A stretch of DNA of 27,151 bases, from the IMG/VR virus record IMGVR_UViG_3300044684_000125, positions 1-27,151 of that record; one strand, 5' to 3'. Positions within the stretch are counted from its first letter, which is position 1. Each line of letters begins with the position of its first letter. Positions 3,622-23,398 of this stretch are shown in pieces. The notes under the pieces are model-generated. The model was given only the letters and a program-made list of their open reading frames with translations. It had not been told where the DNA came from and did not search any database. The translations under genes and the position numbers were made by a program. Source of the stretch: a virus.

Positions 3622-3940
3622 AACCTTCGGCCACATGTCCTACGTGATGAGCTACAACGCACGCACAGATATGGTCTGCTTTATTGGCTGGATCACGACA
3701 CGAAGCCTGCTTACCGAACTGCCGGCAGAGCTGTACAGCCAGGACGACAATCCGAAGCGGCTGCGAGCCGAGTCCTTGGCCCTAAGCCGCATGGAGTCCT
3801 ACCTGAATGGCGATCCGTATCCAACTCTTCTAAGCATGGGCAAGACGGAGGAGGCCATGAAGCATAAGACGGATATCTGGTCCGATGAGAACACCCAATT
3901 CCTACGGAGCCTTCTGCATGAACCTGAAGCCCATCTATAA
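3599..3940 (+). CDS. Hypothetical protein (113 residues)
   Basis: I choose the ATG at 3599 (MSESSPIK); an in-frame ATG at 3584 would add MRDRK. Either start overlaps the previous gene. The product has an N-terminal part with aromatic residues (YVMSYNARTDMVCFIGWITT) and a charged helical C-terminal half. No motif, signal peptide or clear membrane span is seen. Its end overlaps the co-chaperonin gene start by 23 bases, consistent with a compact late operon. Function is unknown. Confidence 0.65.
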   Translation: MSESSPIKTFGHMSYVMSYNARTDMVCFIGWITTRSLLTELPAELYSQDDNPKRLRAESLALSRMESYLNGDPYPTLLSMGKTEEAMKHKTDIWSDENTQFLRSLLHEPEAHL

Positions 3941-4190
3941 CCGGTTGGTAGTAAAGCGGGACGATCGACTGACGAAGACCGAGAGTGGCATCCTCTTGGC
4001 TCTGAAGGAGACCAACGACCGCAATGAGCTGAAGCCGGAGGGCACGGTTCTAGCTATCGGTCACGACGTCCATGATGTGGCAGTGGGAAACCGGGTGATT
4101 TTCCGTAAGATGTCCGGTACGGAGGTAAAGGTGGATGGCCAGGATCTTCTGGTGATGACAGAAGACGACGTGATTGCGGTGATGTCATGA
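3918..4190 (+). CDS. GroES-like co-chaperonin (copy 1)
   Basis: The 90-residue product has the GroES (Cpn10) layout. An N-terminal strand LKPIYNRLVVKRDD is followed by a mobile-loop equivalent (TKTESGILLALKET) with a hydrophobic GILL in place of the GroEL-binding GIVL. Then come EGTVLAIG, VAVGNRVIF and a C-terminal DDVIAVMS strand. E. coli GroES is 97 residues. I start at the ATG of MNLKPIY because the in-frame extension upstream reads through the previous gene. Phage co-chaperonins such as T4 gp31 replace GroES during coat folding. A second GroES-like gene lies at 10906, which makes this copy unusual. Confidence 0.85.
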   Translation: MNLKPIYNRLVVKRDDRLTKTESGILLALKETNDRNELKPEGTVLAIGHDVHDVAVGNRVIFRKMSGTEVKVDGQDLLVMTEDDVIAVMS

Positions 4191-10453: not shown

Positions 10454-10906
10454 ATGCAAGCCGGTTACCCGAAAGTGATGAAGCATCCGGCCTTCGTCAA
10501 AGGTTTAGCGCAAGAGGTTTGGCCACGAAATTACAAGCCTCAACCGGGAGAAGTGGAATTTCCTGGTACATCCGATCGATTCCCTGATGTGACGGTAGTC
10601 GATCCGGATCAGCAGGAGTGGTATGAATCAAGGGGGTATTACCCAGCGGACGGCACGCCTTCCCTTCTCGGATTTACGGGTCCGAATGCGGAGTTTCAGG
10701 AGTATCCGAAGTTCATTCGCACACCGGACGGCGAAGAACTTCTAGTGAATTCGGTTGAGGAAGAATCCAAGGCCATGGGTCATGGCGAAGTACCTTGTAT
10801 GCCGTTGGTCCAGACGCAGTCTGATAAGCCACCGCGCAAGAAACCCGGACCTCCCAAAGGCTACAAACGAAAGCCTAAAACAGATCATATGAAGGTGACT
10901 GACTGA
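10454..10906 (+). CDS. Hypothetical protein with AT-hook-like C-terminus
   Basis: The 150-residue product has a strong ribosome site (AAGGAGGG at 10439-10446). The middle is rich in Pro, Asp and Glu (PDVTVVDPDQQEWYESRGYY), with a repeated EYPKF/PDGEE character. The end is basic and Pro/Gly-rich (RKKPGPPKGYKRKPK), resembling AT-hook or other minor-groove binding tails. Position between head and tail genes suggests a virion or assembly role, but no homologous function is recognised. The stop overlaps the next start (TGATG). Confidence 0.65.
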   Translation: MQAGYPKVMKHPAFVKGLAQEVWPRNYKPQPGEVEFPGTSDRFPDVTVVDPDQQEWYESRGYYPADGTPSLLGFTGPNAEFQEYPKFIRTPDGEELLVNSVEEESKAMGHGEVPCMPLVQTQSDKPPRKKPGPPKGYKRKPKTDHMKVTD

Positions 10907-11196
10907 TGGGCATCCAGCCGCTCGATAACCGCATCATCGTCAAGCCCTTCCCTACCGAAGCATTGACGTCCTGGGGATTGGTACTGGTCCAGCTCGAAGA
11001 AGAGAAGCCGATGGCCGGTACGGTCGTTTCCATTGGTCCTGGACGCAAGAATGACGATGGATCTCGCCAACCGATGCAGGTCAAGGAAGGCGATAAGATC
11101 ATGTTCGGTAAGTACGCACAGCAACCGTTTCAGCATAACGGCGAGACACTTCTCGCGATGTGCGAAATGGATGTTCTCTTCATCATGGAGAAATAG
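10906..11196 (+). CDS. GroES-like co-chaperonin (copy 2)
   Basis: The 96-residue product is full GroES length and aligns in order. IQPLDNRIIVKPFP is the N-terminal strand. TEALTSWGLVLVQLEEEKP is the mobile loop, with hydrophobic GLVLV where GroES has GIVL. GTVVSIGPG is a highly typical core motif, VKEGDKIMFGKYAQQPF follows, and MDVLFIMEK is the final strand. It is closer to bacterial GroES than the copy at 3918, and the two differ at most positions. It would cap a chaperonin during folding of a phage protein. It is coupled to the gene before it and is followed by the gp4-like gene. Confidence 0.88.
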   Translation: MGIQPLDNRIIVKPFPTEALTSWGLVLVQLEEEKPMAGTVVSIGPGRKNDDGSRQPMQVKEGDKIMFGKYAQQPFQHNGETLLAMCEMDVLFIMEK

Positions 11197-11933: not shown

Positions 11934-13889
11934 ATGGAAACGCCTTTTCTCGGCGGTACCTACCAATCCTTCTCATCGAATCTCGCTGATGATCGATGCA
12001 TGAACCTGTACCCTGAAGTCGTCGAGACGAAACAGGGTAAGCAAGTCGGAGGTTTCTACTCCACGCCGGGCCAGAAGCTTCTACAAGTCCTCACCAATAG
12101 CGGTTCCGGTGCAGTATCGGGCCCTATGCGCGGCATCCATAAAACTGCCAATAACAAACTTGTCGCGGTTTTCGGCAATCAAGTCGTCCAAATCGACATC
12201 AATGGTGTTGTAACACCCCTTGGTCACTTGAATACTGCATCGGGACCTGTCTCGATCATCGACAATGGAAGACAGTATGCCGTGTTCGATGGCTTCCAGG
12301 GATGGTCATGGAGCGGGAGTACTTGGGCACAGATCACGACCATTCCTAACTTTCCGTTGATCGCCTGCGAACAGGATGGTTTCGGCATAGTAGGCATCGC
12401 TGGCACGAACCAGTTCTACCAGTCGAATCTCAATGATTTGACGACTTGGGATCCACTCAACTTTTCCAGTGCTGATTCGAATGCAACCAACATTCAAGCG
12501 ATCTTTACGCTGTTTCGTCAGCTTTGGGTGCTGAAAGAAAACGCCATTGAGATTTGGAATAACGCTGGCCTCAATGGTTTTGCCTTTCAGCGCATGGAGG
12601 GGGCGTATGTGAATGTGGGCTGCGTCGCCCCCTTCTCGGTGGCTACCAGTGAAGATCACATCTTTTGGCTAGGTCAGTCTGATGAGGGATCTCTTCAGGC
12701 TTACGTCAATAATGGCTACTCGGAACAACGCATTTCGACGCATGCCATTGAGTATCAGATTCAAAGCTATCTAGCGATGAGTTCCATTGGTATCGCCGAT
12801 GCCATTGGTTTCTGCTACACGCAAGCCGGACATGTGTTCTACGTACTCACTTTCCCTTCCGGCAATGCCACCTGGGTCTATGACATGACCATTGGGCTAT
12901 GGCATGAGCGAGGCGAATTCATCAATGGGTCTTACAACCGCTGGGACCCATCCTGTTATGCCTTCTTCAATAAACAGCATGTGGTCGGTTCTTCGACGAA
13001 TCAGCGCCTTTCTGTGCTTGACCTTACGTATCCCACGAACGATCTGGCGACGACACCGCCGTCGAATCCTAAGCGGTGGATGCGGAGGTGGAGGGCATTG
13101 AAGAAGCCCATGCAGGAACCTGTACGCCTGCAATCACTCAAGGTAGATATGCAAACCGGAGTGGCGGTAGGAACGGCTACCAAGATCACTAATCAAGCCG
13201 ATCCCTTTGCCCTAGGTACATGCAATGTGGTGATCACGCTAGGTTCTAATGTCTATCGGTATGCGATGGGATATAACAGTTCTCAAAGTTTCACCGGCAC
13301 CTATGGTGCCAACACATTCTCGCTTCAGATTACCGTAGACAATACGGGCTTCATCAGCCTGAATTACACGGGTTCAGCGACTACGAATGCGTTTGGTGCC
13401 TTTGTCGAGGTAGAGCCTCAATACGGCTTCAATGGCGCACAGCTTAAGCAATTCATCACCAAGTCATCGGCAGTAACCTTCGGCGCATACATGTCATCGG
13501 ACAGCGTGCAAGGCGGCGGCGTGTACTACAACGCTCCTTACTCGCCGGTACCGATCCATCGCTATGGCATCACCGGATACAACACCGGTGGCGTAACCCT
13601 CAATCCGGGTACTTGGCTAGGATTTTCCTCCCTAGCGACCCAAGCACTACTTGTGGTGGCCTTGCCAACTTCCAGCCCGGTCATCCTGAAATGGTCGGAC
13701 GATGGCGGTCATAGCTGGTCGAATGAAATGCAGTCTTCTTCCGGGGCTACCGGTGAAACGGCCTACCGCGTCATGTGGCGACGTATTGGATCTACTCGCC
13801 GGAATCGTGGATTGGATCGCATCTTCGAGATTTCGAGCGAAATGATGATCCAGACCTGCCTAGTCGGAGCATCCATCGGTGATGGCTGA
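11934..13889 (+). CDS. Packaged DNA stabilisation / tail hub protein, P22 gp10-like, with insertion
   Basis: The 651-residue product is longer than P22 gp10 (472). Family features: the N-terminal CMNLYPEVVET and GGFYSTPGQK region, IFTLFRQLWVLKENAIEIW with FAFQRMEGAYVNVGC, and a C-terminus with VILKWSDDGGHSWSNEMQ followed by RRIGSTRRNRGLDRIFEIS. gp10 forms a hexameric ring that closes the portal vertex. The usual continuous stretch from DMQTGV to LKWSDDGGH is interrupted: residues about 412-580 are extra, Gly/Ser/Thr-rich and beta-like. That length accounts for nearly all the excess over P22. The stop overlaps the oxygenase start by 8 bases. Confidence 0.88.
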   Translation: METPFLGGTYQSFSSNLADDRCMNLYPEVVETKQGKQVGGFYSTPGQKLLQVLTNSGSGAVSGPMRGIHKTANNKLVAVFGNQVVQIDINGVVTPLGHLNTASGPVSIIDNGRQYAVFDGFQGWSWSGSTWAQITTIPNFPLIACEQDGFGIVGIAGTNQFYQSNLNDLTTWDPLNFSSADSNATNIQAIFTLFRQLWVLKENAIEIWNNAGLNGFAFQRMEGAYVNVGCVAPFSVATSEDHIFWLGQSDEGSLQAYVNNGYSEQRISTHAIEYQIQSYLAMSSIGIADAIGFCYTQAGHVFYVLTFPSGNATWVYDMTIGLWHERGEFINGSYNRWDPSCYAFFNKQHVVGSSTNQRLSVLDLTYPTNDLATTPPSNPKRWMRRWRALKKPMQEPVRLQSLKVDMQTGVAVGTATKITNQADPFALGTCNVVITLGSNVYRYAMGYNSSQSFTGTYGANTFSLQITVDNTGFISLNYTGSATTNAFGAFVEVEPQYGFNGAQLKQFITKSSAVTFGAYMSSDSVQGGGVYYNAPYSPVPIHRYGITGYNTGGVTLNPGTWLGFSSLATQALLVVALPTSSPVILKWSDDGGHSWSNEMQSSSGATGETAYRVMWRRIGSTRRNRGLDRIFEISSEMMIQTCLVGASIGDG

Positions 13890-14460
13890 ACATCCTCCTA
13901 TCCGTATGCTCAAAGCCACGTTCCACGTGGAGCATGCTTTGGCGCAATTGGCCGCTCACCCTGAGCTATGGAATCAGCACACCCATCGTACCCACGGTTA
14001 CGGAACGCCCCATCGGACCATCGACGATATTTGGGTCCGCTATAACGACTTCTCGAAGTACATCGGAGATCGGTCGTTTTTCGCCGACGAACATGACTCT
14101 GTATGGTATCCGGGAGCTGAAATGATCCCGGCAGTCGTGGAGTTGGCCATGGATCTGATGGGCGAGGTACGCGGCGAACGCCTGGGGGGCGTCCTCATCA
14201 CCCGAATACCGGCCGGGGGACAGGTTGATCCCCATATCGATCAAGGCTGGCATGCTCGCTACTACGACAAATTCTGTATTCAGTTGATGGGCAATCCTGA
14301 ACAAGCCTTCTGCTTTCGCGGCTATAGCCTTTCTGCCCTTCCAGGTCAGGTTTATACCTTCGATAACTCCCGTGAACACTGGGTGACAAATTCGTCGAAA
14401 GAGGACAGAATGTCGCTCATCGTGTGCATAAAAGGTGCTCATCGTGTCCAATTCGAGTGA
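13882..14460 (+). CDS. 2-oxoglutarate/Fe(II)-dependent oxygenase, Asp/Asn hydroxylase-like
   Basis: The 192-residue product has a double-stranded beta-helix signature: HxD at His118-Ile-Asp120, distal His166 (REHWVTN), and Arg176 (EDRMSLIV), which would hold 2-oxoglutarate. GGVLITRIPAGGQVDPHID and FCFRGYSLSALPGQVYTFDN are in the order expected for aspartyl/asparaginyl-hydroxylase-like phage enzymes. The reaction would couple 2-oxoglutarate decarboxylation to hydroxylation; the substrate (protein, nucleotide or small molecule) is unknown. I start at ATG 13882; a GTG three bases earlier is possible. The gene is embedded between gp10-like and ejection genes, so it is expressed late, and its upstream neighbour is translationally coupled. 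Confidence 0.85.
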   Translation: MAEHPPIRMLKATFHVEHALAQLAAHPELWNQHTHRTHGYGTPHRTIDDIWVRYNDFSKYIGDRSFFADEHDSVWYPGAEMIPAVVELAMDLMGEVRGERLGGVLITRIPAGGQVDPHIDQGWHARYYDKFCIQLMGNPEQAFCFRGYSLSALPGQVYTFDNSREHWVTNSSKEDRMSLIVCIKGAHRVQFE

Positions 14461-14641
14461 CTCTATCCGTCCCGAGGAACTGATCACCTTTGACATGTAT
14501 TTCGCGTCCGTTCGATCCATGCAATTTCACCCTGGCGCGGGGACCAAAGAACACACGATTTTGACGCGGGAGCAGTGTGCGCAAGAAGCGCTTGAGATGA
14601 TCAAGCTCCGGCGAATCATGGCTGGGGCCGATGCCGGATGA
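14444..14641 (+). CDS. Hypothetical protein (65 residues, GTG start)
   Basis: I choose GTG at 14444 (MSNSSDSIRPEE), with AAAGGTG at suitable distance upstream. An alternative GTG at 14435 adds three residues. The product has a FDMYFASVRSMQFHPGAGTK core and ends in a helix (EQCAQEALEMIKLRRIMAG). The final helix resembles the small phage proteins made next to tail genes. Function is unknown. It occupies the slot between the oxygenase and the ejection proteins where P22 has gp26 and gp14, but no similarity to those is seen. Confidence 0.6.
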   Translation: MSNSSDSIRPEELITFDMYFASVRSMQFHPGAGTKEHTILTREQCAQEALEMIKLRRIMAGADAG

Positions 14642-14649
14642 GGTGAGTT

Positions 14650-15396
14650 ATGCCCTGGGGCTTTGCAGCAGCAGCAGTCGGTTCCATTGTTGGCGGGGTG
14701 ATGTCCGGCCAAGGCGCTCAAGACGCCGCTCAAACGCAGGCCAATGCGGCCAATGCGGCCACTCAAGCCCAACTGGACATGTACAACCAGAACGTCCAGC
14801 GTCTATCGCCATGGACCAATGCGGGCGGATCGGCATTAAGTACCCTTCAGGGCATGATGCCGACGCTGACCCAGCAATTCGGAGCGCAGCAATTCCAGCA
14901 ATCGCCTGGGTATCAATGGCAGCTTGGCCAAGGCATCAATGCTATCCAGAATTCGGCAGCCGCCACCGGCGGTGTCAATTCCGGCAATACCATGAAAGCT
15001 CTGATGAGCTATGGCCAGGGCCTCGCCAATCAGGATTACTACAACGCCCTGAATGCCTATACTAACTGGCAAAACCAGGTCTACAACATGTATTCGGGCA
15101 TCTCGAATACGGGGGCGAATGCGGCAGGTCAAGTGGCTGGAATCGGTGCCAATACCGCCAATGCCATCGGCAATAACATCACTGGCGCGGGCAATGCTCG
15201 GGCCGCTGGCCAAGTGGCCGCTGGCAATACCATGGGCAACACACTGGGTAGCCTTGGCAATCTCGGTTTGATGTATCAGATGCAGGGTGGCTTTGGCGGT
15301 GGTGGTGGTGGCGGAGGGATGCCAAACATCCCCAGTAGCGCCTATACGCCCGATTACACCCAAAGCTTTGCACCATCCGGCATCACGGGGGTCTAG
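14650..15396 (+). CDS. DNA transfer/ejection protein, P22 gp7-like
   Basis: The 248-residue product is close to P22 gp7 (229). It has a hydrophobic N-terminus (MPWGFAAAAVGSIVGGVMSG) and then Ala/Gln-rich helices. The core is characteristic: RLSPWTNAGGSALSTLQ, SPGYQWQLGQGINAIQNSAA and GVNSGNTMKALMSYGQGLAN, a pattern common in phage ejection or internal virion proteins. The end is Gly-rich (GGFGGGGGGGGMPNIP). Such proteins are packaged in the head and exit with DNA to form a conduit through the host envelope. Ribosome site GAGGTGAG precedes the ATG. P22 order (gp7, gp20, gp16) matches the next two genes. Confidence 0.85.
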   Translation: MPWGFAAAAVGSIVGGVMSGQGAQDAAQTQANAANAATQAQLDMYNQNVQRLSPWTNAGGSALSTLQGMMPTLTQQFGAQQFQQSPGYQWQLGQGINAIQNSAAATGGVNSGNTMKALMSYGQGLANQDYYNALNAYTNWQNQVYNMYSGISNTGANAAGQVAGIGANTANAIGNNITGAGNARAAGQVAAGNTMGNTLGSLGNLGLMYQMQGGFGGGGGGGGMPNIPSSAYTPDYTQSFAPSGITGV

Positions 15397-15398
15397 CG

Positions 15399-16781
15399 AT
15401 GCCCATCGATCCGTCCATTGTGCTTTCAGGGGTTCAGGGACCGCCGCAACCGATTACTCTGAACTCTATTGCGCAGATGATGCAGATGCGTCAGCAAGCG
15501 CAACAGATGCAGCAGCAGCGTGCCGTCCAGAACTCACTCGCCGCGATCTACAGCGATCCGTCCAATCTTGGGCCTGATGGCATGCCTAATGCTCAGGCCA
15601 TGCTCAAAATCGCCCGTGTTTCGCCTCAGGCAGCACAGAGTATGACCGCACAAAAAGCGGCCATCGATGAAAAACTGGCGATCACCAGCAAAGACCAAGC
15701 AGAAGCTGGTCTTCAGGCGCAAAAGTACATCCAAACGATCGTGCGCGATCCGGCTTTGAATGCCTATGACGAAGCCTTGGCATCCGGTAAAAGCCCCCAA
15801 CAGGCGCGAGATATCGCCCAGAAAATCTACTCCGAGGGCCTGGATAGCCTTTTTGCGGGCGGCTATGTTTCGGACACCATGAAGTCGCAAGTGCCGCAGA
15901 ACTTCGATCCGGTACGGGTCCGGGCGAATAGCCTGTCTTATAAGGATGCACAGAACCTTGCTGGTAAGAAGGAAGATCGTGCCGAGAAGGAGGCCTACCA
16001 GAGCGCACAGCTAAAGCTAGGTGAAGCACGCCTTGGTCTAGAAGAGCAGCGCGTTGGCATTGAAGGAGCTAGGGAGCGTCGAGAGGCTGGCAAGGATCAG
16101 GCGGGTGGCGGCCAAGATCTTTCGGATGACGCCATCAATAATGCTGCGGCGCGTTATAACCTGGACGGGACCCTTCCTCCGATGGGGATGGGTAAAGCCG
16201 GGATGAATCTTCGTACTGAGATTCTTAACCGCGCCGCCAAGATGGCGTCCGGAAAAGATCCAACCGAACAGCGCGTTCAACAAATCGCCAATAAAGCGGA
16301 TGCATCGGCCTTGCTTCAGCTCCGCAAACAACAAACGGCCGGCGAGAATTTCGAGAAGACCGCACTCAAGAATGCCGATTTGGCGCTTGCTGCCTCTGAG
16401 AAGATGGATCGCACGGGGGTTCCGGTCTTCAACAAATGGCTTCAGGCAGGTCGTCGTGGTACTGGATCGGTGGAAGCAGCCAATTTCGATGCGGCCAACA
16501 ATTCCTTTGTGGAGGAATATGCCAAGGTCATGACGGGATCTACGGGGGGTGCGGCGGCGACGGATTCAGCGCGGCAGCGTGCTCATGAGCTTCTGGATAC
16601 CTCCATGACACCGGAACAATACCGATCCAATGTGGACATCCTGAAGAAGGAAATGGCTAACCGTGTTCAATCCTTCCGCGAGCAGGCCGAGGAAACGGAA
16701 GGTCGCATTCGAGATACAGGCAAGAAGTCTGATTCGGGTACTTCGCAAGCCAAAACCGTACATTGGGATGACCTGCAATGA
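15399..16781 (+). CDS. Ejection / internal virion protein, P22 gp20 position
   Basis: The 460-residue product is near P22 gp20 in length (471). It is mostly helical, with a Gln/Met-rich N-terminus (SIAQMMQMRQQAQQMQQQRA), a coiled-coil region in the middle (DRAEKEAYQSAQLKLGEARL, then EEQRVGIEGARERREAG), and further helices to the end. No enzyme domain or membrane span is seen. Assignment as an ejection protein comes from composition, coiled coils and its place between the gp7-like and next genes. Direct sequence similarity to gp20 was not demonstrable by eye. It overlaps the next start (ATGA). Confidence 0.65.
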   Translation: MPIDPSIVLSGVQGPPQPITLNSIAQMMQMRQQAQQMQQQRAVQNSLAAIYSDPSNLGPDGMPNAQAMLKIARVSPQAAQSMTAQKAAIDEKLAITSKDQAEAGLQAQKYIQTIVRDPALNAYDEALASGKSPQQARDIAQKIYSEGLDSLFAGGYVSDTMKSQVPQNFDPVRVRANSLSYKDAQNLAGKKEDRAEKEAYQSAQLKLGEARLGLEEQRVGIEGARERREAGKDQAGGGQDLSDDAINNAAARYNLDGTLPPMGMGKAGMNLRTEILNRAAKMASGKDPTEQRVQQIANKADASALLQLRKQQTAGENFEKTALKNADLALAASEKMDRTGVPVFNKWLQAGRRGTGSVEAANFDAANNSFVEEYAKVMTGSTGGAAATDSARQRAHELLDTSMTPEQYRSNVDILKKEMANRVQSFREQAEETEGRIRDTGKKSDSGTSQAKTVHWDDLQ

Positions 16782-18472
16782 GCATGGACGTCACTCTTCC
16801 GGATGGTACGGTCATCAAGGGCGTCCCGGATGGGACGACGCGGGAACAACTCGCGCAGAAATTGGTGGCCAAAGGCTTCAAAGTTCCCGATTCCTGGCTG
16901 GCTAAGAAGCGTTTTGCACCCGGGACACCGGAATTCGAGGCGGCTTATCAGAAGAAACAGGATGAAATGGTCGCCGGCATGTCGATGGGTGAGCGTTTGG
17001 CCGCTGGCGCGGGCAAAGCCGTCTATGACACTGGCCGAGGCTTGGGCCAAATTCTCGGCAAGGTTTCGAAGGAAGATGTAGCGAAGGCGCGTGAGCAAGA
17101 TCAAGCCTTGATGCGCACCAAAGCGGGGATAACCGGCAATGTCCTGGGTTATGTGGGAGAGGCGGTACCTGCCGCATTGCTTGCACCGGAGGCGACAGGC
17201 GCGGCTGGCACGGTAGGTACCGCTCTTCTTCCTAGGCTCATCGCTGGCGGTCTTTCTGGTGGCGCCCAGGGCTATGCCGCCCCTTATGCTTCGCAGGGGG
17301 AGCACATCACTAATACGCTGGTAGGTGCCGGCCTCGGAACGGCCATTCCGGGCGCTGGCGCTGCCACCTCGAATGTCATGCGGGGACTAGCTTCTCCTGA
17401 AGCCAAGACGCTCCTGGAGGCCGGAGTGCGCCTCACCCCTGGTCAGATGCTTGGCGGCATGGCGCGACGCGCTGAAGACGCTGCTATGAGCCTTCCGGTG
17501 GTGGGTTCGGCCATCCGCAATGCCCAACGGCGCGCGATCGAGGATTTCAATCTAGCCAGTGTGGAGAAAGCCCTGCAACCGATTGGGATTAAGCTAGGAA
17601 AAGGTGTCGAGGCAGGCTATGACGCCATCGAGCAGGGTCGTAAAGCGATTACCTCAGCCTATGACAAGGTGCTTGGCAAGATGAAAGGCCGGGTGGATAG
17701 CACCTTGACCAACAAGATTGCCGGCACATTGACCAGTCATGTCAACACGCTGCCGGACAATCTGGCCCGCAAGTTGATGCAGACGGTCGATGAGGATGTT
17801 CTACAGAAGCTTGGAAAAGGCCAATGGGTCGGCGGCAAGGAAGTTAAGGAAGTTATATCGAATCTCGGCAATGAAGTTCGTGCCGCTCAGCAATCGATCG
17901 ATCCGGCCTATCGACAGCTTGGTAAGGCGTTTCAGTCCATCCAGAACGATGTGAAGGATATGCTGAAGCGTAGTAATCCTAAGGAAATGGGCGAGGAATT
18001 GGCGAATGCCGATGCGGCGCATGCCCGCATGCTTCGCGTGGAAAACGCGGCGGCGCGTGTGGGTGCGGACGAAGGGAAATTCACTGCGGCGCAACTCCGT
18101 TCGGCTGTTCGAGCCGAGGATTCCAGCTACAAAAAGCGTGGTTTCAGCCAGGGCAATGCTCTGCTACAGGATTGGGCCGATGCTGGCAAGAATGTCTTGC
18201 CACAGAAGGTTCCAGATAGCGGCACTGCGGAACGTCTACGCCTCCTAGATACTGCCGCCATGCTTGTACCTGGCTTGGCCGCGCATGCTGCCTATAGCGC
18301 CCCCAGCCGTTTTCTGATGGAAAGGGCGCTGGCTCCCCGCCCTAATCCAGTATCGAACTATCTGGCTAATTTGGCTCAGCAGCGTCTAGGGAATCCGGCG
18401 AATGCTCTGGTGGGTCGTGCATTTGCTCCTCAGCCAATGCCACAACCAGCGCCGCAAGTCCAGCAGCAATAA
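16778..18472 (+). CDS. Ejection / internal virion protein, P22 gp16 position
   Basis: The 564-residue product (P22 gp16 is 609) begins with MDVTLPDGTVIKGVPDGTTR, a short motif that recurs at the start of many large phage internal and tail proteins. Hydrophobic Gly/Ala-rich stretches follow (NVLGYVGEAVPAALLAPEAT; LLPRLIAGGLSGGAQGYAAP; TLVGAGLGTAIPGAGAATSN), able to insert in a membrane. Then come long helices (IKLGKGVEAGYDAIEQGRKA), and the end is Pro/Gln-rich. This combination fits a protein ejected with DNA to breach the inner membrane. It is the third ejection gene in the P22-like order. The specific role is inferred. Confidence 0.68.
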   Translation: MSMDVTLPDGTVIKGVPDGTTREQLAQKLVAKGFKVPDSWLAKKRFAPGTPEFEAAYQKKQDEMVAGMSMGERLAAGAGKAVYDTGRGLGQILGKVSKEDVAKAREQDQALMRTKAGITGNVLGYVGEAVPAALLAPEATGAAGTVGTALLPRLIAGGLSGGAQGYAAPYASQGEHITNTLVGAGLGTAIPGAGAATSNVMRGLASPEAKTLLEAGVRLTPGQMLGGMARRAEDAAMSLPVVGSAIRNAQRRAIEDFNLASVEKALQPIGIKLGKGVEAGYDAIEQGRKAITSAYDKVLGKMKGRVDSTLTNKIAGTLTSHVNTLPDNLARKLMQTVDEDVLQKLGKGQWVGGKEVKEVISNLGNEVRAAQQSIDPAYRQLGKAFQSIQNDVKDMLKRSNPKEMGEELANADAAHARMLRVENAAARVGADEGKFTAAQLRSAVRAEDSSYKKRGFSQGNALLQDWADAGKNVLPQKVPDSGTAERLRLLDTAAMLVPGLAAHAAYSAPSRFLMERALAPRPNPVSNYLANLAQQRLGNPANALVGRAFAPQPMPQPAPQVQQQ

Positions 18473-18592
18473 GCGTTTCAGAAAGGATTCGCGCATGTGG
18501 GTCCATGCATAGATGTGCAATGCCTGGATGCCATGCAGCACCAGCAATACGATGATGTAAGCAATGCACCGTTCCAGCATGGAGATCAGTAT

Positions 18593-18766
18593 ATGCCATC
18601 TAAATCGAAAGCTCAGAACCGCATGATGCATGCGGTAGCCCATGACAAGAAACTTGGGCAACGTCTCGGTGTTCCTCAAAAGGTCGCTAAGGAGTATGTG
18701 AAGGCTGATGCAGCCCGTAAAATCAAGAAACTACCGCTTCACGTCAAAAAGGCGAAGAAACACTAA
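18593..18766 (+). CDS. Small basic protein (57 residues)
   Basis: The ATG at 18593 follows GGAGATC. In-frame upstream codons to 18497 are of unlike composition, so the short version is preferred. The product begins MPSKSKAQNRMMHAVAHDKK and contains GVPQKVAKEYVKADAARK, then a Lys-rich end. Small proteins with this MPxKSKAQ opening are widespread in phages, often beside virion genes, with no established function. Strong positive charge suggests nucleic-acid contact. The stop overlaps the ATP-grasp start (TAATG). The preceding 120 bases (18473-18592) hold no gene I can support. Confidence 0.72.
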   Translation: MPSKSKAQNRMMHAVAHDKKLGQRLGVPQKVAKEYVKADAARKIKKLPLHVKKAKKH

Positions 18767-20100
18767 TGCGCGTCCTCCTGATCGATACAGACCGTTGCGG
18801 CCTGGATTTCGCGTGGCGCTGTGTCGAGGCGGGTCATGACGTGCGCTGGTATAACCGGGACAAAGAGGGGAATAGATTCAAGGATGGCAAAGGATTCCCG
18901 GGCATTCAGCATATCGATGATTGGAAGCCTTCCATGAAATGGGCCAAGGATGGCGTCATCTGGCTATCGTCCAACGCGATGTTCATCAAGGATATGGACG
19001 AGTGGAAAAAGCATGGATATCCCATCTTCGCGCCTTCACAAGCCGCTGCAGATCTAGAGATCAAGCGCGCAAAAGGCATGCGCTTGCTTGAAAAGATGGG
19101 GCTTCTCGTACCTGCTTATCACACCTTCAATTCTCTCAAAGAGGCTGAGAATTTTGCGCGTAAATCCGATCAAGCCTATGTGTTCAAAACCATGGGCGAT
19201 AACGAAGACAAGAGCCTTTCGTATGTGGCTAAAACGCCAGCTGATCTGGTTGGCCGCATCCAAAGATGGATCAAGCTCGGTTTGAACCCGAAAGGACAGG
19301 TGATGCTGCAGGAGAAAATTGATGGCTATGAAATGGGTGTTTCTTGCTGGTTTGGCCCGGTGGGTCCGTTGCCGAATAAGTGGAACATTAATTTCGAGCA
19401 CAAGAAGCTCATGCCCGGAAATTACGGACCCAACACCGGAGAGATGGGTACGGTCATCCAGTATTGCCGCGATGAAAAGATGGCCGATGAATTGTTCACG
19501 CCTGAACTTGTCAAACACTTGATCGAGATCGGCCATATCGGCGATATCGACCTCAATTGCATCATCGAAAAAGGAAGTGGAAAGATCTACCCCCTTGAAT
19601 TCACCTGCCGTCCCGGATGGCCTTACGACTGGATTGCCTCCGACCTGCATAAGGGCGATCCCGTAGAATGGATGCGGGATCTCTTAGAAGGTCATGACAC
19701 CCTACAGGTTTCTTACGACGTTGGTATTGGTGAAGTCGTAGCGATTCCACCCTTTCCGCGTGACGATTGCGACGAAGCCGAATGCATGGACTTGCCCATT
19801 GAGATACCGCACCGGTGGGACCGTATCCATCCTGTCTGTATGCAGATCGAGAAAGGACCTTCCATGAAGGATGGCAAGGTCGTAGACGCCGATATTTTCA
19901 CTACATCTGGCAATTATGTGCTTGTCGCGACGGGTACGGGTGAAACCGTCAAGCAGGCCAAGGAAGCGGTAGACAAAGTGATCAAGAAAGTGAACGTCTC
20001 TAACATGATGGTTCGCAATGACATCGGCAACGATTTGGAAGAATGCTTACCGGAACTCCATAAAATGGGGTTCGCAACCTCAATGGAGTATGACCTATGA
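18766..20100 (+). CDS. PurD-like ATP-grasp ligase
   Basis: The 444-residue product has the layout of phosphoribosylamine-glycine ligase (PurD, E. coli 429 residues). It has an N-terminal Rossmann-like part (MRVLLIDTDRCGLDFAWRC) and an ATP-grasp core with KRAKGMRLLEKMGLLVPAY (100-118), VMLQEKIDGYEMGVS (179-193) and HKKLMPGNYGPNTGEMGTV (212-230). LEFTCRPGWP (277-286) carries Glu278 and Arg282, and a C-terminal part has SGNYVLVATGTGETVKQAKE (381-400). GPNTGEMG closely matches PurD GPNTGGMG. The PurD GGREHA motif is replaced by TDRCGLD and the GDPE end by GWPY, so the substrate may differ. It would join an amine to a carboxylate using ATP. It is coupled to the genes on both sides, both late. Confidence 0.85.
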   Translation: MRVLLIDTDRCGLDFAWRCVEAGHDVRWYNRDKEGNRFKDGKGFPGIQHIDDWKPSMKWAKDGVIWLSSNAMFIKDMDEWKKHGYPIFAPSQAAADLEIKRAKGMRLLEKMGLLVPAYHTFNSLKEAENFARKSDQAYVFKTMGDNEDKSLSYVAKTPADLVGRIQRWIKLGLNPKGQVMLQEKIDGYEMGVSCWFGPVGPLPNKWNINFEHKKLMPGNYGPNTGEMGTVIQYCRDEKMADELFTPELVKHLIEIGHIGDIDLNCIIEKGSGKIYPLEFTCRPGWPYDWIASDLHKGDPVEWMRDLLEGHDTLQVSYDVGIGEVVAIPPFPRDDCDEAECMDLPIEIPHRWDRIHPVCMQIEKGPSMKDGKVVDADIFTTSGNYVLVATGTGETVKQAKEAVDKVIKKVNVSNMMVRNDIGNDLEECLPELHKMGFATSMEYDL

Positions 20101-21170
20101 CTGGCCCCCTCACCCCCAGCGTACCTCCTAAGCTCAAGTTCTTTATTCCCGGCACGACCAATGTAGCATCGGGTGCAAAGCTCTTTACCTATGCAGCAGG
20201 CACTACGACCAAGCAGGCTACATATTCGACCTCCACTGGCACGCCCAACACCAATCCCATTGTCTTGGATGCGAATGGAGAGTGTGTGTGCTATCTGGAT
20301 TCGAATCTGGAATACGATTTCTGGTACTGCCCATCGACCGATACCGATCCTCCCACTAATCCGTATTGGACGGTTGGAAGCATTGGCTTCGGAAACATGA
20401 TCAATGGCCTTGCGCCATTGAACAGTCCGGCTTTTACGGGAACGCCAACCGCACCTACTGCAACGGTTGGTGATAGCAGCACGGATATTGCCAATACACA
20501 GTTTGTGCAAACAGCTATCACCAACGCTTTTGCAAGCAATCCCACCGTTCCTACACAAGCCGCTGGCGACTACAGCACGAAAGTTGCAACAACTGCTTTC
20601 GTAGGAAATGAAATCAATCGCGCTTGGCAAATGGTGGTTTTCACCAATTCAGGCACATGGAATGTGCCTACAAATGTGAAATTCGCCAAAATTCGGATTT
20701 GGGGAGGAGGTGGTGGTGCCGGGGGTGGATCTTCCGGAAATGTAGGTTCTGGCGGCGGTGGTGCCGGTTATGCAGAAGGTGTTATTTCTCTGGGATCCAA
20801 TACTTCTTTGGCAATTGTTATTGGAGCTGCTGGAACAGGCGGTTCGCCTGGTAATTCAGGAACATCCGGCGGTGCATCGACCATTGCTGCATTAGGAATT
20901 ACTGCGAATGGTGGTGGCGCAGGTGCTGGGAATAGTGGAACGCCAGGTGCAGGAGGTGGCGCTTCGGGGTTGACGTTAACTTATACGGGCTCCGGGGGTG
21001 GCATTTCTGTCTTACCTGGATCGGGTATTCCTGCTCCAGGAGGCGGTGCGTGGGGTAATGCAGCTTCATTTATTCCCTTCGGCCCTGGATGTGGCGGCAC
21101 CGGTTTTGGCAATGCCTCAGGATCGGCTGGCATTGCGGGCATGTGCATCATTGAGTACCTACAGCCGTGA
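20097..21170 (+). CDS. Tail fibre with Gly-rich adhesin-like C-terminus
   Basis: The 357-residue product has three parts. Residues 1-95 (PKLKFFIPGTTNVASGAKLF, then TYAAGTTTKQATYSTSTGTP) match the N-terminal domain shared by many podovirus fibres. Residues 105-172 hold two phage tail repeats (SPAFTGTPTAPTATVGDSST and DYSTKVATTAFVGNEI). From about 180 there is FTNSGTWNVPTNVKFAKIRI, then a long run of Gly blocks to residue 350 and a closing IIEYLQP strand. The last part resembles Gly-rich domains that can pack as polyglycine-II layers in phage adhesins and probably contacts the receptor. It overlaps its neighbours by 4 bases on both sides. Confidence 0.85.
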   Translation: MTGPLTPSVPPKLKFFIPGTTNVASGAKLFTYAAGTTTKQATYSTSTGTPNTNPIVLDANGECVCYLDSNLEYDFWYCPSTDTDPPTNPYWTVGSIGFGNMINGLAPLNSPAFTGTPTAPTATVGDSSTDIANTQFVQTAITNAFASNPTVPTQAAGDYSTKVATTAFVGNEINRAWQMVVFTNSGTWNVPTNVKFAKIRIWGGGGGAGGGSSGNVGSGGGGAGYAEGVISLGSNTSLAIVIGAAGTGGSPGNSGTSGGASTIAALGITANGGGAGAGNSGTPGAGGGASGLTLTYTGSGGGISVLPGSGIPAPGGGAWGNAASFIPFGPGCGGTGFGNASGSAGIAGMCIIEYLQP

Positions 21171-23398
21171 CCGTGAATCTCACCATCCCTGTACAACAGC
21201 AACCCGTTTCAGATGCATCGGGTCGCATGACGTTGCCTTGGTATCGTTATTTACATGACTTTAAGCAGGCATCTTCGAATTTCATATCTATTCCCGGTAA
21301 CACCCTTTTAGGCAACAGTGGTACGTCAGAAGCGTCACCTGGACCTATCTCCATAGGAAATGGATTGTCCCTATCCAATGGGGTTCTTAGCGCCAATTTG
21401 ACAGGAGGCACTGTTACCTCCGTTGGCATTGCTCTTCCCAATATCTTTTCGGTGAGCAATTCTCCGGTTACGACGTCAGGCACGATATCGGTATCGCTTG
21501 TTTCTGAACCCGCTAATCAAGTCTTTGCTGGACCGTCTAGCGGAGGGTCTTCGACGCCATCGTTTAGGTCTTTGGTAGTTGCGGACATTCCACCGCTTCC
21601 CTATGTGACATCGGTGGGTTTGTCTGCACCATCCATCTTTACGGTATCAGGATCGCCTGTAACCAGTTCTGGCACACTCACTTTTTCACTCAATACGCAA
21701 GGTGCCAATTTAGTGTGGGCCGGTCCTTCTTCAGGGGCATCCGCAGCTCCTACCTTTAGGACTATGGTACTGGCCGATTTACCTTCAATCGCTACAACTA
21801 CTCTTTTAGGCAATCCATCAGCTTCTACTTCAACGCCTACCACTATCACCATTGGCACCGGATTAAACCTTTCGACCGGAGGTGTTCTTTCGGCCACCAT
21901 TTTCAGCAATCAAAGTGCGAACTTGATATTCGCAGGACCCTCATCAGGAGCGGCATCATCTCCAACTTTCAGATCGATGGTTCTGGCGGATCTTCCTTCA
22001 ATTGCCAGCCAGACCCTTTTAGGGAATCCTGCGACAACGTCAGGAACACCTACGACCATTACCATCGGTGCAAACTTAAACCTTTCGACCGGAGGTGTTC
22101 TAAGCGCTACGGGAGGGGGAGGGGGTGGCGTTACTTCTGTTGGACTATCTCTACCATCACAATTCACTGTCACCGGATCACCTGTCACAGGCTCCGGAAC
22201 GCTTACCGGGGCATGGAATAATCAGAACGCTAACGTTGTGCTTGCCGGTCCTTCTTCGGGATCCTCGGCATCTCCTACATTCCGATCACTTGTAGCTAGT
22301 GATATTCCATCGCTTAGTTACCTTCCATTATCCGGAGGTACGATAACTGGCGATTTGACGATTTCCGAAACACAAGCCCAACTTCACTTAACAAGTACAG
22401 GAACAAGCGGCGATTCTTGGGCCATTGTCTCTGCATATTCCGGAAGTATTGAGCCTGCAGGAAGTCTCTTCTTCTACAACGCCACTACTGGTCTTCCAGC
22501 GCTGATACTTGGACCAACTGGCATAGCAACAGTCACTAACAAAAACCAAAATGGACAGGGATTCATTGTCCAGGATACCGGTAATGCTGCATCCAGCTTT
22601 GCCGGTATTGGCCTTAAATCCACTAATGGCTCTACTTCTCCTAACAAGTGGATTCGGTCGGATGGTTCAACCGGAAGAGGCCAATTCATAAATAGTGGTT
22701 ACAGTGCTGTTATTACAGACTGGGACGATTCCGGAAATTGGAATATGTCTGGAAGTGTCACATGCGGCGCTCTTTCTGCTACGACAGGAACATTCTCCGG
22801 TGCAGTAAGCGGAACAACCGGAACATTCAGCAACAATATAAATTTGAGTATTAGCGGATCTTCAGCATCCATCACTGCTACCAATACAGGAAACTTAAAG
22901 TTAACTACAACTGCCACTAGTGGAGGTCAGATACAGCTATACCCACAAACCAACTCGTCAAATGGACTTAGCATCATAACGACTGGTGTAAATCCATTCA
23001 CTGATAACACGATGAATTTGGGTATTTCTGGTAGTAGGTTTATAGCTGTTTGGGCTGTTAATGGGACAATCCAGACATCTGATGGTAGAGAGAAATCTAG
23101 TCTTCAAAAACTCATTGAAGCAGAGATACGTGCTGCCAATAGGATTTTAGAAACCATCGGCATCTATCGCTGGAAAAAGGATTTAGATGCGCTTGGCGAT
23201 GATGCCTCATGGCACATAGGTGTCATTGCGCAGACGGTATGCCACATCTTCGAAGAAGAAGGCTTGCGCTGGCAGCGTTACGGCATGATCACCTATGAAG
23301 ATGATCGCTATGGCATTAACTATGCCGAGTTAAACGCGTTCTTGAGCGCTGGCCTACACTCTCGCCTAAAGCGTATCGAAGCCGCTATGGGACTATGA
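21167..23398 (+). CDS. Tail fibre with C-terminal S74 intramolecular chaperone
   Basis: The 743-residue product is a trimeric-type fibre. The N-terminus includes RMTLPWYRYLHDFKQASSNF, a segment common to fibres linked to the tail. Residues about 75-400 hold repeated beta units (VTSVG..., SPVT.SGT, AGPSSG..PTFR) and two 71-residue copies. Then LPLSGGTITGDLTISE and a mixed beta region follow. From residue 637, TSDGREKSSLQ gives Ser638 and Lys643, the Ser-Lys spacing of S74 chaperone domains. The remaining 106 residues contain WHIGVIAQTV and YGINYAELNAFLSAGLHSRL. By analogy the domain folds the trimer and cleaves itself off before Ser638. Confidence 0.9.
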   Translation: MTVNLTIPVQQQPVSDASGRMTLPWYRYLHDFKQASSNFISIPGNTLLGNSGTSEASPGPISIGNGLSLSNGVLSANLTGGTVTSVGIALPNIFSVSNSPVTTSGTISVSLVSEPANQVFAGPSSGGSSTPSFRSLVVADIPPLPYVTSVGLSAPSIFTVSGSPVTSSGTLTFSLNTQGANLVWAGPSSGASAAPTFRTMVLADLPSIATTTLLGNPSASTSTPTTITIGTGLNLSTGGVLSATIFSNQSANLIFAGPSSGAASSPTFRSMVLADLPSIASQTLLGNPATTSGTPTTITIGANLNLSTGGVLSATGGGGGGVTSVGLSLPSQFTVTGSPVTGSGTLTGAWNNQNANVVLAGPSSGSSASPTFRSLVASDIPSLSYLPLSGGTITGDLTISETQAQLHLTSTGTSGDSWAIVSAYSGSIEPAGSLFFYNATTGLPALILGPTGIATVTNKNQNGQGFIVQDTGNAASSFAGIGLKSTNGSTSPNKWIRSDGSTGRGQFINSGYSAVITDWDDSGNWNMSGSVTCGALSATTGTFSGAVSGTTGTFSNNINLSISGSSASITATNTGNLKLTTTATSGGQIQLYPQTNSSNGLSIITTGVNPFTDNTMNLGISGSRFIAVWAVNGTIQTSDGREKSSLQKLIEAEIRAANRILETIGIYRWKKDLDALGDDASWHIGVIAQTVCHIFEEEGLRWQRYGMITYEDDRYGINYAELNAFLSAGLHSRLKRIEAAMGL
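21863..22101 (+). repeat. Direct repeat within the tail fibre gene, 213-base period
   Basis: A 26-base word occurs exactly at 21863-21888 and 22076-22101, 213 bases (71 codons) apart and in frame. Surrounding codons are also alike (the LADLPSIA and LLGNP segments), so two 71-residue units run in tandem from about residue 181. It is consistent with recent duplication or recombination within the shaft. Confidence 0.85.

Follow-up and report, generated by a model that had tools for sequence, protein, structure and literature searches.

A PurD-like ATP-grasp ligase family, set apart from PurD and carried as an optional cassette in a phage virion operon

The window, by which we mean the whole stretch of DNA that was analyzed, is a virus record from IMG/VR, 27,151 bases long and representing a partial genome. 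It encodes a P22-type portal (PF16510, E = 8e-172), a P22 coat protein (PF11651, 7e-44) and a scaffold. Two separate GroES-like co-chaperonins (3921–4190 and 10906–11196; Cpn10, 66 and 76 bits) flank the portal–coat region, and one GroES-like co-chaperonin is annotated in the same region of MW202796, a complete relative. The genes that concern us here all lie on the + strand. A head-closure/stabilisation protein (Hc3, 11934–13889; phrog_578, 3.7e-80) is followed by an Asp/Asn beta-hydroxylase-like 2OG oxygenase in an interchangeable enzyme slot (13879–14460; PF05118, Asp_Arg_Hydrox, 29.6 bits, cut-off 22.6) and by a P22 gp7-like DNA ejection protein (14650–15396; phrog_598, 1.7e-45, with PF25688 at 0.0014, below its cut-off). 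A second (15399–16781) and a third (16778–18472) ejection-type protein were assigned by synteny, the third, for which Pfam gave no significant match, occupying the position of P22 gp16. Then come a small basic protein, the PurD-like gene, a tail fibre (20097–21170; phrog_863 and tail fibre families) and a second tail fibre (21167–23398), recognised by its Peptidase_S74 intramolecular chaperone domain and by PHROG matches. With its P22-type portal, coat, scaffold, Hc3, gp7-like protein and tail fibres, this is a phage of the P22-coat type, probably short-tailed.

The PurD-like gene occupies positions 18766–20100, starts with ATG and encodes 444 residues. The original prediction had described an ORF of this length with GPNTGEMG at residues 221–228, a glutamate at 278 and an arginine at 282, coupled to both neighbours, and all of this was found in the sequence. 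On the 5' side, TAATG is the overlap of the small basic ORF's stop codon with the PurD-like start, and on the 3' side, ATGA is the overlap of the PurD-like stop with the start of the tail fibre. The small basic protein (18593–18766; phrog_16759, 2.5e-15; also phrog_25121 and phrog_22033) is similar over a short segment to structural proteins of phage virions; it most likely starts at the ATG at 18593, giving 57 residues, rather than at the GTG at 18497, since the PHROG matches begin at residue 33. Compared with near relatives, the PurD-like gene had a dN/dS of 0.025–0.052, which shows that the protein is under constraint, and this selection, together with hundreds of homologues, led us to reject an artefact or chance ORF. 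Judging from the position of the gene, its expression would be late.

In sequence searches the protein returned essentially PurD alone. Pfam gave GARS_A at 36 bits (cut-off 27, E = 8e-9) and GARS_C at 33.6 bits, against a cut-off of 34.8, and a sequence search of the PDB returned GAR synthetases (E = 3e-15). An AF2 model built from 91 family sequences had a pLDDT of 95.4 and a pTM of 0.93, and the top 15 PDB structures matching it were all GAR synthetases (E from 6e-30 to 7e-27, TM ≈0.7), followed by biotin carboxylases and PurK from E = 3e-18. The model thus has the GAR synthetase fold, with the GARS N, A/B and C domains present by structure match; at the sequence level, GARS_C was detected in 91 of 91 family members, GARS_A in 90 and GARS_N in only 3. 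The kinship to PurD is far beyond chance. PurD was the best named homologue. The TIGR00877 (PurD) score was 74.4 bits (E = 7e-21), far below the curated cut-off of 288 bits, and sites characteristic of PurD were changed. Among viral structures in BFVD there was no close relative (best E = 6e-11, TM 0.46), PHROGs matched none of 92 PurD-like members, and a PADLOC run left the protein unmatched.

We then compared motifs between 12 true PurDs (from Salmonella, Acinetobacter, Pseudomonas, carrier genomes and others) and 51 viral plus 40 cellular members of the family, using Salmonella PurD numbering for PurD residues. Residue roles were presumed from general knowledge of ATP-grasp enzymes, apart from the PROSITE pattern cited below. 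K145, G148, E194, E286, R290 and R416 were retained in all 91 members, and H215 and K216 in almost every one. K145 corresponds to K141 of the window protein (19186–19188), which we take to be the ATP-grasp lysine, as established for such enzymes; this lysine and the Mg-binding glutamate, E278, are both invariant and, with the fold, place the protein in the ATP-grasp superfamily. A non-enzymatic structural protein is unlikely, as K141, H212, K213, E278 and R282 are invariant or nearly so in the family. Set against these retained residues are five fixed changes, K105R, E187Q, D214E, G229E and N288T. D214 and G229 have become E211 and E226 in residues 211–228 (EHKK...GPNTGEMG, 19396–19449), where the histidine and lysine are kept. 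Residues 278–286 (19597–19623) read EFTCRPGWP for EFN-R-GDP in PurD, with E278 and R282 kept and N288 replaced by T280. D214E, G229E and N288T each occurred in 91 of 91 members. E286 and N288 of PurD form a metal site, and of this pair the family has kept the glutamate and lost the asparagine throughout. At the D293 position there was a tryptophan in 49 of 51 viral members and a tyrosine in all 40 cellular ones, and E295 was lost.

The original prediction that the substrate-side motifs of PurD had been replaced was borne out by the same alignment. G9-G10-R11-E12-H13 was invariant in all 12 true PurDs; the 91 members have lost the motif, and none of the five residues is retained in the window protein, where the GGREHA loop site (residues 7–15, TDRCGLDFA, 18784–18810) has DRCGLD at residues 9–14. 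Likewise, R-P-G-W-P-Y stands in place of R[LF]GDPE, and the protein does not match PROSITE pattern PS00184, which PMC3261824 writes as R[LF]GDPEx[EQIM]. From the retained and changed residues, the ATP and acyl-phosphate machinery looks to have been kept and the amine-substrate side rebuilt. In another virus record, IMGVR_UViG_3300005435_000016, the same gene (locus L005, 8001–10274) contains an apparent in-frame intein of ≈310 residues (LAGLIDADG_3, 1.9e-6), starting with CFTPDAEV and ending with SFIGQ before a threonine, inserted inside the loop as GPN^TGEMG.

The protein is therefore like PurD (TIGR00877; PF02844/PF01071/PF02843; PDB 2yw2, 2xcl, 1gso) in fold and domain order, in the ATP-grasp lysine, the Mg-binding glutamate, the HK motif, the R290 equivalent and the C-terminal GARS_C domain, but differs in lacking the GGREHA phosphate loop and GDPE, in the five fixed substitutions and in having no purine genes alongside. 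A separate true PurD, scoring 530–582 bits, was present besides the paralogue in 8 of 10 carrier genomes searched. The complete chromosome of the archaeon GW2011_AR15 has the paralogue, with no PurD over the cut-off and no PurL; the tenth carrier genome, a Rhodanobacteraceae assembly, also had no PurD over the cut-off. In 24 viral records of 34–63 kb with the PurD-like gene there was no PurF and no PurM, and neither is annotated in MW202796, whose PurD-like protein is 36% identical to that of the window. We rejected purine supply on these grounds (the score below the cut-off, the lost motifs, the coexisting PurD and the lack of viral PurF and PurM), in line with the original prediction. The window protein is almost certainly not a purine-supply PurD, and a ligase working outside purine synthesis is nearly certain.

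Scanned with a profile, IMG/VR yielded 411 PurD-like stretches and the GTDB genome contigs 279, both counted before dereplication; the 80 best from each set were retrieved. Among the best 80 of the 279 genome loci, five were nearer to the viral branch and 43–77% identical; they came from Rhodanobacteraceae (one, 77% identical), Paraburkholderia (two), Nevskia (one) and an uncultured betaproteobacterium (one), and the three that were mapped lay in the same phage operon. The 77% identity suggests Rhodanobacteraceae as the host group of the window phage. The remaining 75 of these 80 loci were ≈30% identical and occurred in DPANN archaea, Patescibacteria, Omnitrophota, Balneolaceae, Acidobacteria, Gammaproteobacteria and others. 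In a Burkholderiaceae sample, members were present in 2 of 249 genomes. A tree of 58 sequences recovered the viral, cellular and PurD groups as one clade each (SH-aLRT 99, 98 and 100), with a support of 100 for the split between viral plus cellular proteins and PurD. The viral and cellular PurD-like proteins are thus sister clades, both apart from true PurD; the long branches caution against reading the tree further.

Brown et al. (2011, PMC3261824) had already concluded that two haloarchaeal "extra" PurD-like proteins, rrnAC0307 and Hlac_1553, are not GAR synthetases. As described there, they also have no GARS_N match, lack the Mg site and the conserved aspartate of R[LF]GDPE, and have a divergent N-terminal loop. 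They differ in being cellular and in being two examples for which no function or wider family was proposed, and the likeness is one of description only.

Some neighbours of the family members recur. A protein of ≈120 residues with conserved HExxE (HELxx) and EPGD-PY-H motifs adjoins the PurD-like gene in several viruses (eight loci) and two cellular genomes, and is 41% identical between one of the cellular loci (L199) and one of the viral loci (L115). Its AF2 model had a pLDDT of 93, and a fold search of the PDB gave no significant match, the best being PprI at E = 0.13. It was not found in the window. A functional partnership with the PurD-like ligase is possible.

The original prediction had placed the gene in a virion operon, and the gene does sit at a near-fixed site among virion, ejection and tail genes in the 63 viral or prophage loci left after dereplication. 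In nearly every case it comes after the third ejection-type gene, in a conserved position just behind it or sometimes with one small gene between, and a recognised tail fibre often lies on its 3' side where the contig reaches that far. Upstream gaps, overlaps included, were at most 15 bases in 49 of 61 loci, and downstream gaps at most 60 bases in 50 of 60. We also collected 48 relatives independently of the PurD-like gene, through Hc3 and gp7, requiring at least 8 kb downstream. The gene was present in 10 and absent from 38 of them. Of these 38, 24 were mapped and read by eye; the third ejection-type gene was usually followed directly by a fibre-type gene, and in some by other genes. The PurD-like gene is thus an optional cassette whose place in the late operon is nearly fixed.

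The slot between Hc3 and gp7 (13879–14649 in the window) holds a 2OG hydroxylase, a GNAT, a cupin-like protein or other small proteins, alone or paired, and its contents are interchangeable among carriers and non-carriers of the PurD-like gene alike. The 2OG-type protein that the original prediction had noted in the same late region is indeed present, but the two-step pathway of hydroxylation followed by ligation proposed with it is weakly supported: 2OG proteins were found in 23 of 55 loci with the PurD-like gene and also in 4 of 30 without it, in an interchangeable slot. An obligate two-step pathway found no support, because 32 of the 55 carriers had no detected 2OG protein in the slot. These and other associations with carriers (the HELxx protein, a cluster-16 protein and a methyltransferase–GT9 fusion) are ascertainment-biased, since the profiles were built from carriers, and were not relied on. 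The fusion, which joins a SAM methyltransferase to a GT9-type glycosyltransferase domain of weak score, lies upstream in the late operon at 895–2421 of one viral locus (L104) and in 18 other viral loci. Two labels are provisional, "sulfotransferase" for the cluster-16 protein, taken from N-terminal sequence alone, and "cupin" for cluster 11, made by eye alone; Pfam gave no match for either.

On balance, we lean slightly towards reading the gene product as a GARS-fold ATP-grasp carboxylate–amine ligase that shares ancestry with PurD, made late and tailoring a virion or host component without producing GAR. The chemistry, carboxylate plus amine plus ATP giving an amide, is the firmer part and quite probable by analogy with PurD; amide-bond formation, late timing and the class of target are what we infer here, whereas the fold, the homology to PurD, the altered motifs, the conservation, the place in the genome and the separation from purine synthesis genes were shown directly. 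The enzyme would bind Mg-ATP through K141 and E278 and, with the retained H212/K213 and the R282 region, activate a small carboxylate as its acyl-phosphate. This acyl-phosphate would then be attacked by an amine other than phosphoribosylamine, because the phosphate loop and GDPE motif of PurD are gone. Its target would most likely be something made or needed late, either a virion protein (ejection protein or fibre), or a host-envelope component or metabolite. Given where the gene lies in the operon, a virion protein or a host target late in infection is favoured. What counts against this explanation is that most of the related phages found lack the gene. Moreover, the ancestral reaction need not concern virions, as the cellular sister branch, at ≈30% identity, lies outside phage operons.

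Of the candidate targets in the original prediction (a virion protein, a nucleotide or a sugar), the first is a tentative possibility: the ligase may join an amino acid or amine to one of the ejection proteins or tail fibres encoded in the same operon. The near-fixed site beside the third ejection protein and the fibre, held over 63 loci with identities down to ≈40%, and the short gaps or overlaps with both neighbours in most loci speak for such a target, as does the recurrence of tailoring-type enzymes in the operon (the 2OG hydroxylase, GNAT and methyltransferase–glycosyltransferase fusion). However, 38 of 48 relatives have the same ejection and fibre genes without the PurD-like gene, cellular homologues exist outside phage operons, and operon position alone is no proof of a virion-protein target. 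Modification of a protein or peptide is plausible from the cellular relatives, which in 5 of 71 mapped loci, from Woesearchaeota, Kaiserbacteria and Gammaproteobacteria, adjoin a GNAT PF13480-type gene and in two adjoin SET-domain genes, one locus having both. R2K (CDC123-like) ATP-grasp peptide ligases of jumbo phages are likewise viral ATP-grasp enzymes predicted to modify proteins, but belong to a separate ATP-grasp family, set apart by its description (PMC7824862).

Somewhat more doubtful is a late role in small-molecule synthesis or in modification of the host envelope, for example to block superinfection. PMC10580990, citing Iyer et al. 2009, proposes that phage amidoligase and glutamine amidotransferase genes alter the cell wall against superinfection, and LUZ24-like phages have a set of ATP-grasp, amidoligase and GATase genes (PMC3890496); such phage ATP-grasp ligases likewise have no known substrate. 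The methyltransferase–GT9 fusion occurred in 27 of 55 loci with the PurD-like gene and in 1 of 30 without it, a difference subject to the ascertainment bias described above. Against this role, no amidoligase (PF12224) or GATase (PF13522) was found among the window proteins scanned, which cover a partial genome and not every small ORF, or in the annotation of MW202796. In the LUZ24-like phage UFV-P2, the ATP-grasp protein has 291 residues and its gene lies in an early module with the amidoligase and GATase, not beside ejection genes (PMC3890496), whereas the window enzyme is GARS-type, has 444 residues and belongs to a virion module in which neither partner was found among the proteins scanned.

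It is unlikely that the enzyme travels inside the particle and enters the next host along with the DNA, to work there early in infection; the gene does follow three ejection-type genes, and P22 injects gp7, gp16 and gp20 (PMC8402733), but no sequence sign of packaging was found and position is the sole basis for the idea. A genuine PurD boosting purine supply during infection is highly improbable, for although PurD is the best named homologue by both sequence and structure, and viral purD has been counted as purine metabolism in surveys of snow and hydrothermal vents (PMC11097641, PMC12043954), the score, the lost motifs, the three substitutions found in every member, the separate PurD of most carriers, the paralogue kept by GW2011_AR15 without PurD and PurL, and the viral records without PurF or PurM all weigh against it.

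Returning to the ligase that tailors a virion or host component, it could belong to an undescribed system, although we regard the following version as speculative: made with the ejection proteins and fibre, the ligase would covalently attach an amino acid or amine to a protein of the particle, a step that infection of particular hosts would require or profit from, and the sister family, known from CPR bacteria, DPANN archaea and further phyla, would carry out a related ligation of proteins or small molecules. We found no paper describing the viral PurD-like family in the open-access literature. What the results establish is a GARS-type ATP-grasp family that lies outside PurD. Its genes are easily mislabelled "purD", and viral "purD" genes in published work may in part belong to it; for these, homology-based calls read as purine supply (e.g., PMC11097641, PMC12043954) may be wrong. 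E211, E226, T280 and W/Y285 provide a simple residue test that separates the family from PurD, and the prophages of cultured Paraburkholderia, among them sp. C35 and P. rhynchosiae WSM 3937, offer a setting in which to seek the substrate of the ligase. The window gene represents a broad, uncharacterised ligase family that environmental phages share with many microbes, one of them an archaeon lacking both PurD and PurL.
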